Assembly (NCBI GenBank): GCA_030148665.1
Contig: JASBSZ010000026.1
Span: 1 to 64,000, forward strand
Length of the DNA stretch: 64,000 nucleotides
DNA from: Alphaproteobacteria bacterium
GTDB lineage: Bacteria > Pseudomonadota > Alphaproteobacteria > Rhodobacterales > Rhodobacteraceae
Reading direction: 5' to 3'
This document shows positions 3,402 through 34,315 of the stretch, in pieces (the stretch's first letter is position 1; each line of letters begins with the position of its first letter). Under the pieces are notes generated by a model. The model did no database searches. It saw only the letters and a list, made by a program, of their open reading frames with translations, and was not told where the DNA came from. The position numbers were made by a program, and so were the translations under genes.

Positions 3402-3577
3402 CAGGCGCCAACCCCGGCGGGCCGGATTAGCGCACAAATCGCCCGGAACACGGCCCTCACGCGCCAAATCCGGCGGATCTGCGCGATCTTGAACGAAATC
3501 GGGATCCGACAGGCCACGGGCATTCCCGGCCGCGATCGGGACTTGACCCGACACTGGCCGGCCTGCCATTAACAGAG

Positions 3578-3773
3578 GGCAAGGTTCCCCGACAGGCCGC
3601 CAAGCGGCCGGGGATGAAATGGGAATGCGGTAGGGGACGACCCAAAGAGGGGCCCAAAGCCGCAGCCGCCCCCGCGACTGTATGCGGAGAGCGCCCGCCA
3701 AGATGCCACTGGGCCAACCAGCCCGGGAAGGCGGCGAAGCGCGACGACCCGCAAGCCAGGAGACCAGCCCTGC
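3578..3773 (+). promoter_or_regulatory. Cobalamin (adenosylcobalamin) riboswitch
   Basis: The class-defining elements occur in order: AAGGTTCCC (3581), GGGAAT (3621), CCGCGACTGTATGCGG (about 3671-3686), GCCACTG (3705-3711), GGGAAGGCGGC (about 3724-3734) and the B12 box AGCCAGGAGACC (3754-3765). It ends about 47 bases before cbtB, whose SD (AAAGGA) lies in the expression platform. Riboswitches of this class lower expression when adenosylcobalamin is abundant, which fits the downstream cobalt importer cbtBA and possibly the whole run to cobN. I did not see a strong terminator before cbtB, so translational control is the simpler guess. Confidence 0.93.
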
Positions 3774-3820
3774 ATGATTGAAACCAACCATCCGTCGGGT
3801 GTGACGGGAAAGGAAGCACA

Positions 3821-30770: not shown

Positions 30771-31582
30771 CGCATCCCCGCCTCATCCCGGCGAACGGGC
30801 GGGTGGCCCATGTCTCGCTGAAGGGCAAGGTTGCTGCCGACGAATTTGTCGAGGGCCGCCTGATGCAGGTCCTTTGGCCGGTAGCGGATCTGTTGCGCAC
30901 CCCCCGAGGGGACATGGACTGTCAGCTGCTCTATGGGAACGGGTTTCTTGTCCTCGAAATCCGGGATGGGCATGCCTTCGGACAGAACCCCCGCGACGGG
31001 TATGTCGGATATGTCGCGCAAGAGGCCCTTGGCCCGTGGCAGGAGCCGACCCACCACGTCTGCGCGCTGGCGACCCATCGCTATCACGCGCCCGACATGA
31101 AATCCCGCGCACTGGGTGCCCTGCCGATGGGTGCATGGCTGCACATCACCGGCTGGCAAGGGGGGTTTGCCGCCCTGCCCGACGGCAGTTTCGTGCCTGC
31201 CCAGCATGTCTCGCCACTGGAACAGACGGCCGATGATTTCGTGGCGGTGGCCGAATCCTTTCTTGGCATACCCTATCTGTGGGGGGGCAATTCCGTCTGG
31301 GGCATGGATTGTTCCGGCATGGTCATGCTGGCACTCGGCGCCACCGGGCGCGCCTGCCCGCGCGATACCGACATGCAGCAGGCCGAACTGGGCGTACCCC
31401 TTGCCACGAACGAGGCACCCAAACGCGGCGATCTGATTTTCTGGAAAGGCCATGTCGGCGTCATGCAGGACGGCACCCGACTGCTGCATGCCAACGCCCA
31501 TCACATGCGGGTAACATCCGAGCCCCTGGTCGAAGTCGAAAGCCGTGCCACCGGCCCCGTTACCGCGCGCCGGCGTCTATAA
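30767..31582 (+). CDS. NlpC/P60 family peptidoglycan hydrolase
   Basis: The 271 residues have two SH3-like regions (about 10-140) and a C-terminal NlpC/P60 (C40) domain. The catalytic Cys is in WGMDCSGMVMLAL near residue 185, the His in KGHVGVMQDG near 228, and a following His (LLHANAHH) completes the triad region. Members cut D-Glu-DAP bonds in stem peptides; recycling of murein peptides together with the coupled aminopeptidase is plausible. No signal peptide is visible, so it probably acts in the cytoplasm. Confidence 0.9.
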   Translation: MTHPRLIPANGRVAHVSLKGKVAADEFVEGRLMQVLWPVADLLRTPRGDMDCQLLYGNGFLVLEIRDGHAFGQNPRDGYVGYVAQEALGPWQEPTHHVCALATHRYHAPDMKSRALGALPMGAWLHITGWQGGFAALPDGSFVPAQHVSPLEQTADDFVAVAESFLGIPYLWGGNSVWGMDCSGMVMLALGATGRACPRDTDMQQAELGVPLATNEAPKRGDLIFWKGHVGVMQDGTRLLHANAHHMRVTSEPLVEVESRATGPVTARRRL

Positions 31583-31924
31583 TGCGCGGATCAGCTTGCG
31601 TTCGAGCACCCGCATGACCGTCACCAGATCATGGCCGCGGCGCAGGATCCGACCATCCATGCCCAGAACCGCGTATTGCCCCTGACGCGCGGCCAGCCGA
31701 GGGCGTTTCTCGATTCGATACACGGGGTGTTCGGCGGTGCGGCGAAACACCGAAAAGACCGCGACATCGTGCAGGTGGGATATCCCGTAGTCACGCCACT
31801 CGCCCGCAGCGACCATCCTGCCGTAAACGGACAGAATCACGGCCAGTTCGCGCCGGTGAAAACTGACCCGATCCACCTGAACGCGGCCAGGCCCAAGGGT
31901 TTGCGCGGATTTCACGACCTTCAT
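31577..31924 (-). CDS. DUF2794 family protein
   Basis: A 115-residue soluble protein of a family restricted largely to Alphaproteobacteria. VSFHRRELAVILSVYGRMVAAGEWRDYGI (about residues 19-47), FSVFRRTAEHPVYRIEKRP (about 56-74) and GRILRRGHDLVTVMRVLERKLIRAL at the C-terminus are the family blocks. Function unknown. An upstream ATG at 31954 would add ten residues; neither start has a clear SD. Its 3' end overlaps the end of the NlpC/P60 gene by six bases. Confidence 0.85.
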   Translation of the reverse strand: MKVVKSAQTLGPGRVQVDRVSFHRRELAVILSVYGRMVAAGEWRDYGISHLHDVAVFSVFRRTAEHPVYRIEKRPRLAARQGQYAVLGMDGRILRRGHDLVTVMRVLERKLIRAL

Positions 31925-32066
31925 TGTTTCAGTTTGTCGGCAAATTCCTGCCATATCAAGAACATTGCCCCGCTATTTTCATCAATCACGGAATCACCCC
32001 CTTGTTGCCTGGAATTGTTCCCATTGCCTCCCAGATTCTGCCGGGATCGGCAGCGATATATCGACC

Positions 32067-32185
32067 TGTAGCGAGTAACAGCTCACTCCGGTGCCGCGGC
32101 AATCAGCCCCCACCCAGACCCGCGGTACCGGAGGCTACAATCAACCGAGCGACTGCCCCCGCCATCACCGTCGGGGGCTTTTTTT
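32067..32185 (+). ncRNA. Structured small RNA, tandem copy A, with terminator
   Basis: An outer stem TGTAGC (32067-32072)/GCTACA (32134-32139) encloses a small GAG/CTC hairpin and a 14-pair stem (32086-32099 with 32120-32133, one G-U). The main loop contains CAGCCCCCACCCAGA. A terminator follows: GCCCCCG (32155-32161)/CGGGGGC (32172-32178) plus seven T. Two further copies lie downstream. No coding frame fits. Confidence 0.75.
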
Positions 32186-32303
32186 CGCGCCGGCGACATC
32201 GTTTCCGAAACGGAAACCCAGAGTTTCGAAAATCTTGTGCGATTGCCGCCTTTTAGCCCGTTTTTACCCGGCTTCTGGCCCGAATCCCCGGCGATAAGAA
32301 ACC

Positions 32304-32420
32304 TGTAGCGAGCGAAGGCTCACCCCGGTACCGCGGTTGTTTCAGCCCCCACCCAGAGCCGCGGTACCGGGAACTACCACAACCAAACCGTCCCACCGAT
32401 CAGGCGGGGCGGTTTGTTCT
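32304..32420 (+). ncRNA. Structured small RNA, tandem copy B, with terminator
   Basis: It opens with the same TGTAGCGAGC. A four-pair hairpin GAGC/GCTC (32310-32313 with 32318-32321) precedes a perfect 13-pair stem (32324-32336 with 32359-32371) whose 22-base loop again holds CAGCCCCCACCCAGA. A terminator stem AAACCGTCCC (32385-32394)/GGGGCGGTTT (32406-32415) is followed by GTTCTT. The stem sequence differs from copy C but pairing is kept. Confidence 0.75.
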
Positions 32421-32556
32421 TGCGGGTCGTGTTCCTTTCATGGCGACCGCGATTGCGACCCTGCGGCGCACGGGTTCACGATCATGTAATCAAATGTCGC
32501 CAAATCGCCCTTTTGTTTCCAAACCACCGCCCGGTTCGAGTCTCAGTACTTGGCCC

Positions 32557-32626
32557 GTAGCTGATAAGCTTCCCTCGGCGTCGTGTTGAACAGCCCCCAC
32601 CCAGATGCACGACGCCGAGGATCTTT
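32557..32626 (+). ncRNA. Structured small RNA, tandem copy C
   Basis: GTAGC (32557-32561) overlaps a short AGCT/AGCT hairpin (32559-32562 with 32567-32570). The main stem is a perfect 13 pairs, CCTCGGCGTCGTG (32573-32585)/CACGACGCCGAGG (32608-32620), quite different in sequence from copies A and B, around a 22-base loop with CAGCCCCCACCCAGA. ATCTTT follows directly, so the main stem may itself terminate. Between the copies (32186-32303, 32421-32556) I see no gene. Confidence 0.7.
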
Positions 32627-32734
32627 CCCTGCCCCATCGCTTCAAGACGTCGAAACGCTTTTGCAGGCCGGCCCGCCTGTCCTGTAGACTTGGCCCGTCA
32701 ACAGATTCGCATCAACAGAATGTCAGGAGGGGCC

Positions 32735-34315
32735 ATGCGTGATTTCCAACTGCCGGGCCGGTCGGCCGTGTTCGCCACGAACGGCATTTGTGCAACCTCG
32801 CACCCCCTGGCGGCAAAAGTTGCCGTACAGATCATGGAGGCCGGCGGCAATGCGGTTGACGCCGCCATCGCCGCTGCAGCCGTGTTGACGATTGCCGAAC
32901 CTCCCATGTGCGGAATCGGCGGCGATTGTTTCGTCCTGCTGAAACCTGCAGGGGATGAGCGAATCATCGCGCTGAACGGTTCAGGTCGCGCACCCGGCGC
33001 GTTGTCGGCCGACGCGCTGCGCGAGGCCGGCCATAGGGAAATGCCGTTATACGGGGTCGAATCGGTCACCACCCCCGGTGCGATCGACGCCTTTTGCCGC
33101 CTGTCGGCCGACTGGGGCCGCATGGGTCTGGCCGCCAGCCTGGCACCGGCCATCCATTACGCCGAGGCAGGGGTGCCGGTCGCCCCACGCACCGCATTCG
33201 ACTGGAAGAATGCCGAACCCCATCTGCAGGGCGACGCGCGCAAGTTTCACCTTTTCGCGGGCAAGCCCCCCGAAATCGGCCAGATCTACCGCGCACCCAC
33301 CATTGCCGAGGTCCTGCGGCGGGTCGCCATGGACGGGCGCGAGGCATTCTACGAAGGCGAGGTCGCCCAGGACATGGTCGATTCGCTCCGCTCGCTCGGT
33401 GGTGTTCACACGCTTGACGATCTTGCCAAGCAACATTGCGCGTATGTCGAACCCCTGGCCGGCGCCTACAAGGACGTCGAGCTGGTCGAACACCCGCCAA
33501 ACGGGCAGGGCGCCACGGCCATATTGATGAACAACATCCTTGCCCGTTTCGATCTGGGCGCGCTCGACCCGCTGGGCGCCAGGCGCGCGCATATCGAGGC
33601 CGAAGCCGCCAAGCTGGCCTATGACGCGCGCAACCGTTTTCTGGCCGACCCCGAGCATGTGACTCGGCTGGATCACATGCTGTCATCCGAAACGGCCGAC
33701 AGGCTGGCCGCGCTGATCGATCCGGCGCGCGCAATGGGGGCTGCCGCGTCCCTGACGTCGGCCGTACACAAGGACACCGTTTACCTGACCGTGATCGACA
33801 AGGATCTGATGGCCGTGTCGCTGATCTATTCGGTTTATCACGGATTCGGAACCGGCCTTGCATCGCGGAAATTCGGTATCGTGTTCCAGAACCGCGGTGC
33901 AGGTTTCTCGCTGACACCGGGTCACCCGAACGAGGCCGGCCCCGGCAAGCGCCCCATGCACACGATCATTCCCGCGATGCTGCGTCAGAACGGCAGGCTG
34001 ACCATGTCGTTCGGCGTGATGGGCGGGGCTTATCAACCATGCGGCCACAGCCGTGTCGTGACGAACATGGTCGATTTCGGCATGTCACCGCAGGCGGCAC
34101 TGGATGCGCCACGCAGTTTCGCAGACGAGGGTGTCCTGAAGGTCGAGCGCGGCTACAGCCGGGCCGCGATGCAGGAGCTGGCCGACATGGGCCACCGGAT
34201 CACGGTACCCGAGGTGCCGTTGGGCGGTGGGCAGATCGTCAGGATTGATCATGCGCGAGGGGTGCTCGAGGGGGCATCAGATCCGCGCAAGGACGGATGC
34301 GCCCTGGGGTATTGA
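32735..34315 (+). CDS. ggt: Gamma-glutamyltransferase family protein
   Basis: An Ntn-hydrolase of 526 residues that splits or transfers the gamma-glutamyl group of glutathione and related compounds after self-cleavage into two chains. ATSHPLAAKVAVQIMEAGGNAVDAAIAAAAVL is near the N-terminus, followed by PPMCGIGGDCFVLL. The processing nucleophile is the Thr of the KDTVYLTVIDKD segment (near residue 347), where many members have T-T-H. AGGAGGGG six bases before ATG 32735 decides the start. No clear signal peptide is seen, unlike E. coli Ggt. Some relatives are cephalosporin acylases, so the substrate is open. Confidence 0.88.
   Translation: MRDFQLPGRSAVFATNGICATSHPLAAKVAVQIMEAGGNAVDAAIAAAAVLTIAEPPMCGIGGDCFVLLKPAGDERIIALNGSGRAPGALSADALREAGHREMPLYGVESVTTPGAIDAFCRLSADWGRMGLAASLAPAIHYAEAGVPVAPRTAFDWKNAEPHLQGDARKFHLFAGKPPEIGQIYRAPTIAEVLRRVAMDGREAFYEGEVAQDMVDSLRSLGGVHTLDDLAKQHCAYVEPLAGAYKDVELVEHPPNGQGATAILMNNILARFDLGALDPLGARRAHIEAEAAKLAYDARNRFLADPEHVTRLDHMLSSETADRLAALIDPARAMGAAASLTSAVHKDTVYLTVIDKDLMAVSLIYSVYHGFGTGLASRKFGIVFQNRGAGFSLTPGHPNEAGPGKRPMHTIIPAMLRQNGRLTMSFGVMGGAYQPCGHSRVVTNMVDFGMSPQAALDAPRSFADEGVLKVERGYSRAAMQELADMGHRITVPEVPLGGGQIVRIDHARGVLEGASDPRKDGCALGY

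Follow-up and report, generated by a model that had tools for sequence, protein, structure and literature searches.

Three tandem structured units lying between a DUF2794 gene and ggt appear, as judged by sequence comparison, to belong to a genuine small-RNA family of the Rhodobacteraceae that has no match in Rfam 15 and no description that we could find in open-access main texts. They were studied in a stretch of 64,000 nucleotides (the window), positions 1-64,000 on the forward strand of contig JASBSZ010000026.1 from the Alphaproteobacteria bacterium assembly GCA_030148665.1 (Rhodobacteraceae). An initial annotation of this DNA had proposed a multi-copy, trans-acting small RNA, and the small-RNA part of that interpretation is well supported by conservation, structure, strand, upstream repeats, the terminators of the first two copies and independence from ggt, all of which are established at the level of sequence. 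Our preferred reading, for and against which we see about equal weight, is that the units are separate genes of one autonomous small-RNA family, each with its own GCC-repeat promoter under ChvI and each acting in trans through its loop. The three would then probably be regulatory RNAs that are switched independently of one another.

The order in the window is DUF2794, copies A, B and C, and ggt, with the two loci at which the family resides adjacent to one another. The DUF2794 gene (31,577-31,954, minus strand; Pfam PF10984) is the divergent neighbour of a first sub-type of the RNA in many genomes, and ggt, encoding gamma-glutamyltranspeptidase (32,735-34,315, plus strand; Pfam PF01019), is the downstream neighbour of a second sub-type in most cases seen, both assignments drawing also on synteny. 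All three units are on the plus strand and were delimited by cmsearch and folding: copies A (32,065-32,142, 86.1 bits) and B (32,302-32,381, 84.4 bits) are of the DUF2794-linked sub-type and copy C (32,554-32,629, 75.7 bits) is of the ggt-linked one. Sequence and folding confirmed the architecture described in the annotation. The long stem and loop of A occupy 32,086-32,133, with 14 bp formed by 32,086-32,099 and 32,120-32,133; the stem of B has 13 bp (32,324-32,336/32,359-32,371) and that of C 13-14 bp (32,573-32,585/32,608-32,620), and the loop CAGCCCCCACCCAGA is identical in A (32,104-32,118), B (32,343-32,357) and C (32,591-32,605). Separate terminators on A and B, likewise claimed earlier, were recovered by folding and by a terminator scan at 32,155-32,186 (hairpin 32,155-32,178 followed by a T run) and 32,385-32,421 (hairpin 32,385-32,415), which gives a predicted RNA of about 115-120 nt for each of these two copies. 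No intrinsic terminator was detected after copy C by the strict scan. Candidate -10 elements precede A (GATATA, 32,055-32,060, plus strand) and B (GATAAG, 32,293-32,298, plus strand), the former read from the sequence and the A-rich block of 131 aligned copies, the latter from the sequence and the upstream alignment; promoter scoring gave TTGCAG-N18-TAGACT (32,661-32,690, plus strand), which follows copy C and precedes ggt, as a candidate promoter of ggt.

Throughout the 2.77 Mb assembly (94% complete) the 15-base loop CAGCCCCCACCCAGA occurs at three exact places, all in the window, and at one further site with a single mismatch outside the three units. A, B and C are also the only strong copies found in this assembly by the covariance model; a fourth, weak match (E 0.009) was discarded, its loop being absent.

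The predicted fold consists of a small AGC...GCT hairpin followed by the 13-14 bp stem, which would present an unpaired loop with the core GCCCCCACCC. Folding z-scores were -6.0 for A alone, -5.0 for A with its terminator, -5.5 for B with its terminator and -3.4 for C, and in none of the four tests did any shuffled sequence fold as well as the real one. In an alignment of 107 copies, drawn from 96 sources after leaving out near-identical loci and loci that the model did not match, standard pairs make up 97.8% of the cells in the long stem, and two-sided changes occur at 13 of its 14 pairs. None of 500 shuffles reached any of five stem measures, a control that ignores the relatedness of the copies; sliding the partner strand by one to three columns, which preserves relatedness, lowered the paired cells from 98% to 31-53%. 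G-U cells outnumber A-C cells in the long stem by 154 to 14, so the RNA corresponds to the plus strand of the window. Compensatory helix changes are thus joined by strand-specific wobble pairs, as expected of a structured RNA.

The small hairpin behaves differently from what had been claimed for it. It is best written AGC...GCT, and its three pairs are invariant in 107 of 107 aligned copies, so that it provides no evidence of covariation; by eye, the pairs closing it appear to change together in divergent DUF2794-linked copies (TAGCG/CGCTA, CAGCG/CGCTG, GAGCG/CGCTC). Folding of A predicts a further pairing, GUAG/CUAC, below the junction; 88.6% of its cells are paired among 11 seed copies, while the bases for it are not general across the 107-copy alignment. 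The core GCCCCCACCC is present in all 107 copies, a constancy that is partly built in, since an exact loop pattern had served to retrieve the loci. Among 28 divergent copies found by a model alone (itself favouring the loop, with matches up to E 0.1 included), GCCCCCA is kept in 27 and GCCCCCACCC in 16.

Covariance models built on 11 copies (R1) and on 107 copies (R2) were used to survey related genomes. R1 matched 293 of 394 Rhodobacteraceae genomes under strict filters (E <= 0.01), leaving 101 with no match at that threshold, with a copy number of mostly 1-3 per genome. Together with the two-sided changes in the stem, this bears out the earlier proposal of a multi-copy family selected for its structure, and the homologues found in Rhodobacteraceae combine a conserved loop with compensatory stem changes, as the annotation had suggested looking for. 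In a draw across the order, R2 matched 133 of 149 genomes and 64 of 72 genera at E <= 0.001, the other 16 genomes giving no match at this level; all 149 are Rhodobacteraceae, and the figure therefore carries no information on other families of the order. A class-wide draw with R1 yielded four matched genomes of 289 (E <= 0.001; 265 of the unmatched genomes were not itemised), all four from Rhodobacteraceae. R2 was also run on 40 genomes in which R1 had matched weakly or not at all; 25 of them matched at E <= 0.1 in 28 places, of which 26 are near DUF2794 or ggt, one is near HspQ and one is near none of these. Ruegeria, Roseovarius, Sulfitobacter, Litoreibacter, Rhodovulum, Gemmobacter and Marivita are among the matches listed (80 of 117 loci). 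Tandem copies about 180-270 nt apart recur, with nine genomes as examples, and in the R2 search one genome has three copies in a row. Searching with the exact loop was misleading by itself: 14 exact 15-mer places were found in 10 of 295 genomes, four of them stemless; many copies depart from the 15-mer by a single base at one of its ends, while the models detect the RNA in most genomes of the family. Two contigs labelled Enemella and Castellaniella (L094 and L129) also carry the RNA, L094 with ggt downstream; they are possibly contamination or misbinning by Rhodobacteraceae.

Nearly all copies that could be placed are at two loci, and these correspond to the two sub-types. The first begins with GTAGCGA or similar and lies near a divergent DUF2794 gene, the nearest copy being mostly 94-201 nt away; the second begins with GTAGCTGCAT or similar and lies upstream of ggt. 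Most copies found precede ggt in the same orientation, usually by 43-190 nt. One genome has both loci, apart from each other. In a strict scan, intrinsic terminators followed 16 of the 31 copies within 900 nt of DUF2794 (copy C of the window is among the 15 without), and by eye further terminators are likely in this group. The same scan found terminators in 3 of 107 ggt-only copies; for two of these the hairpin lies in the ggt promoter region and may be spurious. The ggt-linked sub-type is thus mostly devoid of a recognisable terminator, which we counted against an autonomous small RNA. Ten rows of the tally (nine distinct copies) lie beside HspQ and 23 beside DUF2794 alone, in each case with no ggt within 900 nt. 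The tally comprised 164 rows, among them five pattern matches lacking model support, one copy counted twice and about 25 loci taken by pattern outside the model search. Of 96 regions between the RNA and ggt, 82% scored at least 9 for a promoter of the TTGACA-N16-18-TATAAT type, as against 17% of shuffles; single-base shuffles served as the control here and for the repeat spacings in 137 regions given below.

Upstream of the RNA there is a regular array of short repeats. When 131 upstream regions were aligned on GTAGC, conserved CC dinucleotides appeared at -59, -48, -37 and -26, separated by A/T-rich blocks, along with an A-rich, -10-like block from -12 to -8. In 137 regions, GCC-GCC distances of 11, 22 and 33 bp occurred 52, 76 and 51 times, compared with 4.5, 4.1 and 2.9 in shuffled sequences; a distance of 12 was also raised (16 vs 4.5), and exact GCC-N8-GCC was present in 49 of the 137 regions (4.4 when shuffled). 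Within the window the array of copy B is best in phase (32,245-32,280, plus strand; GCC at -60, -57, -49 and -27, CC at -38, the phased series being -60, -49, -38, -27). The arrays of A (32,007-32,042, plus strand; GCC at -61, -42 and -28 relative to GTAGC, CC at -48/-47 and -38/-37), where the 11-bp phase is imperfect, and of C (32,499-32,531, plus strand; GCC at -58, -50 and -28, CC at -38) are less exact. Direct repeats with an 11-bp period would suit a regulator of the OmpR family.

The consensus site of ChvI in S. meliloti is N-GCC-N8-GCC, and the Caulobacter ChvI site has been reported as TTGC-N3-GCAA in the same source (PMC9731502, consulted in part). In Caulobacter a small RNA, ChvR, is under ChvI control, according to the portion of PMC6237742 available to us. 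CenR of R. sphaeroides was set aside as a candidate regulator because its motif is given as TGA-N8-TGA in the part of PMC9275681 consulted. From the form of the repeats we infer that the copies are activated by ChvI. A gene for a response regulator lies ahead of hprK in each of 16 genomes inspected, that of the window included, and from operon order and sequence we take it to be a ChvI-like gene. Autoregulation was checked as possible support: in the 16 regions upstream of this gene, GCC pairs 11 bp apart occurred once (0.1 expected) and pairs of GGC, its reverse complement, at that distance four times (0.3 expected), and a GCC array of the kind seen at the RNA is not clearly present. The assignment to ChvI therefore draws on resemblance of motif and spacing. 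By eye, the DNA ahead of the chvI-like gene carries a conserved element resembling GATTCGC...GATTGATTC in many of the 16 genomes.

Comparison with known families gave no assignment. At the gathering score, Rfam 15 recognised in the window only a cobalamin riboswitch and tRNA, both outside the units; in an 811-bp region searched up to E 10 there were 12 weak matches, none of which came near gathering (best E 0.31), and 20 related loci gave no match. The cobalamin riboswitch lies at 3,565-3,786 of the window on the plus strand (116.9 bits). The CcsR1-4/cuckoo RNAs of Rhodobacter and its relatives are homologous small RNAs encoded side by side, with the motif CCUCCUCCC in an exposed, C-rich loop. 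OmrA and OmrB of enterobacteria are tandem related small RNAs controlled by an OmpR-family regulator, bound by Hfq and endowed with a 5' seed; the likeness, by description alone, is in the tandem copies, and the bacterial class is another. RepG of Helicobacter recognises a G tract in an mRNA leader through a C/U-rich loop, and is similar in its C-rich loop but belongs to an unrelated organism; no G-tract target was found here.

ChvR of Caulobacter crescentus, compared by description, is closer in kind: it is an alphaproteobacterial small RNA under ChvI-ChvG control whose stem-loop sequences pair with mRNA, as far as the consulted part of PMC6237742 describes it, and the repeats upstream of the present RNA resemble the reported ChvI site. 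It differs in being specific to C. crescentus, with a locus upstream of recF/gyrB (same source, same portion), whereas the present RNA matched only Rhodobacteraceae in the class-level search (4/289 genomes). The HRC-8-4 motif of Rhodobacterales shares an order-specific stem with conserved loop bases but is found mainly between cco operons, and neither ggt nor glutamyl occurs in the main text (PMC8632094, consulted in part). P. denitrificans sRNA-29 was dropped from the comparison, as it lies antisense to Pden_0526 (PMC6686037, in part). In the portions consulted, the word glutamyl is absent from reports on R. pomeroyi (PMC4809877) and P. denitrificans (PMC5107571), and ggt and glutamyl are both absent from PMC2864571. 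No description of this RNA was found in the open-access main texts searched; its transcripts may have been detected earlier.

Several other explanations were weighed against autonomous small-RNA genes. Membership in the anti-Shine-Dalgarno CcsR/cuckoo group would account for the stem-borne C-rich loop, the tandem arrangement of several homologues and the alphaproteobacterial host, and yet we hold it to be highly improbable: CCUCCUCCC is absent from all 107 copies, the locus is a different one, CCTCCTCCC occurs in 0 of 107 copies (CCTCC in 7), and the central A of CCCACCC would be mismatched against the A of GGGAGG-type sites. The loop, judged by its sequence, is not a general anti-Shine-Dalgarno sequence, and the annotation had noted that it differs from the anti-Shine-Dalgarno motif of alphaproteobacterial small RNAs. 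A cis-acting leader of ggt, riboswitch or attenuator, duplicated upstream, would explain why most copies sit on the same strand mostly 43-190 nt before ggt and why the ggt-linked type mostly has no terminator. It is very unlikely in our estimation, given the sigma-70-like promoter that intervenes in most of the 96 cases, the copies beside HspQ or DUF2794 with no ggt within 900 nt, and the terminators and divergent neighbour of A and B. Because copies occur with no adjacent ggt and such a promoter usually separates the RNA from ggt, the RNA does not resemble a leader of ggt, in agreement with the earlier view. Least credible of all is a mobile or repeated DNA element, REP-like or a phage-borne palindrome, rather than an RNA gene. 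One copy does occur with the same sequence on two phage-like contigs, but there are mostly only 1-3 copies per genome, nearly all of those placed are at two loci, the G-U pairs are asymmetric between strands, and upstream repeats and terminators are common to the copies.

For base pairing through the loop, the complement would be UGGGUGGGGGCU. GGGTGGGGGY is not enriched in 14 genomes summed (237 places, the RNAs' own antisense included, vs 228 for its reversal). GGTGGGGGYT occurs less often than the reversed control in the two genomes counted (18 vs 44 in G000 and 19 vs 32 in G169), which is possibly avoidance or codon bias. Its 37 places in these two genomes include five that are the RNAs' own antisense; 30 were retrieved, and a mechanical listing puts most of them inside open reading frames; 20 of the 30 compared with Rfam gave one tRNA and nothing else. 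The shorter GGGTGGGG occurs within 0-18 bases of ATG at 598 places in 16 genomes. A conserved target was sought in 60 of these places from 4 of the 16 genomes (20, 20, 18 and 2 regions), and none of the 37 frames of at least 40 aa compared, from 36 regions, were related at E 1e-4. The search used few seed patterns and leaves room for targets elsewhere in mRNAs or in other genomes and for shorter seeds; limited as it is, this prediction of targets for the C-rich loop returned no conserved one. The suggestion that the loop binds G-rich ribosome-binding sites is so far unsupported, the loop not being of the anti-Shine-Dalgarno type, its complement not enriched and the target frames unrelated. Independently of this, GGTGGGGGCTGTCTGCCCCCACACCCCCGA, which contains the loop complement, is present at two separate places in the same genome (contigs C9 and C18, near position 1500 of loci L378 and L382) and is apparently a repeated palindromic element.

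The partner may instead be a protein. CsrB/RsmZ-type RNAs sequester a regulator, and here the loop might be the recognition site of an RNA-binding protein that the tandem copies titrate or scaffold. Such a role agrees with one loop core carried on widely different stems, with copies repeated some 180-270 nt apart in several genomes and with the small target sample, in which no mRNA came up repeatedly. Set against these are the 1-3 strong copies per genome, few for a titrating sponge, and the appearance of each copy as a separate transcription unit rather than part of one multi-site RNA. We regard this explanation as possible though rather unlikely, even though a protein partner would account for the constant loop no less well than base pairing does. 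A more specific version appears improbable to us: a core non-coding RNA of Rhodobacteraceae, carried also by phage, whose near-invariant GCCCCCACCC loop is bound by an RNA-binding protein not yet recognised, the copies being separately switched decoys or scaffolds in a ChvI-run envelope-stress response with no base pairing involved.

Under the preferred reading of autonomous small-RNA genes, each unit would be transcribed alone from a promoter with 11-bp-phased GCC repeats and turned on by an OmpR-type regulator, most simply ChvI, with A and B ending at their own predicted terminators. Each RNA would act in trans, and all copies would use the exposed loop as their seed to pair with G-rich stretches of a few mRNAs; on this pairing scheme the targets would carry GGGUGGGGG stretches. 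The stem would keep the loop open and protect the RNA, and tandem copies would give dosage or separately tuned outputs, as at other duplicated small-RNA loci.

An RNA present in most sampled Rhodobacteraceae, with a barely changing loop and mostly at two loci, is a concrete gap in annotation and an experimental handle, the more so as the family (Ruegeria, Sulfitobacter, Roseovarius and Rhodovulum among the named matches) includes common marine bacteria and laboratory models. The repeat-bearing upstream region makes ChvI testable, and the loop makes a pull-down of targets or proteins straightforward.

A copy of the RNA is also found on phage-like contigs. Of 53 pieces fetched from viral contigs, 30 were checked for the stem by script, and 30 of the 53, together with one host locus, were searched with the model; most exact-loop matches look like chance and only two are real. 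These two IMG/VR phage-like contigs bear the same RNA sequence (L016, 832-912, and L044, 1,303-1,383; 83.1 bits). On L016 the copy is flanked by the gene of an unknown phage protein and by a ParB/methyltransferase gene, ahead of terminase genes, and the frames of L044 follow the same order. Plasmids searched with the window sequence gave six weak matches, none better than E 1; one of the six was intergenic, in a Paracoccus plasmid. A hand-composed consensus had zero matches in the plasmid and phage collections. No clear GCC array is visible by eye upstream of the phage copy. On its 3' side the sequence has a terminator-like hairpin, and AAAGGTGGGGCC, located 3' of the stem and including the loop-complementary GGTGGGG, could pair with the loop.
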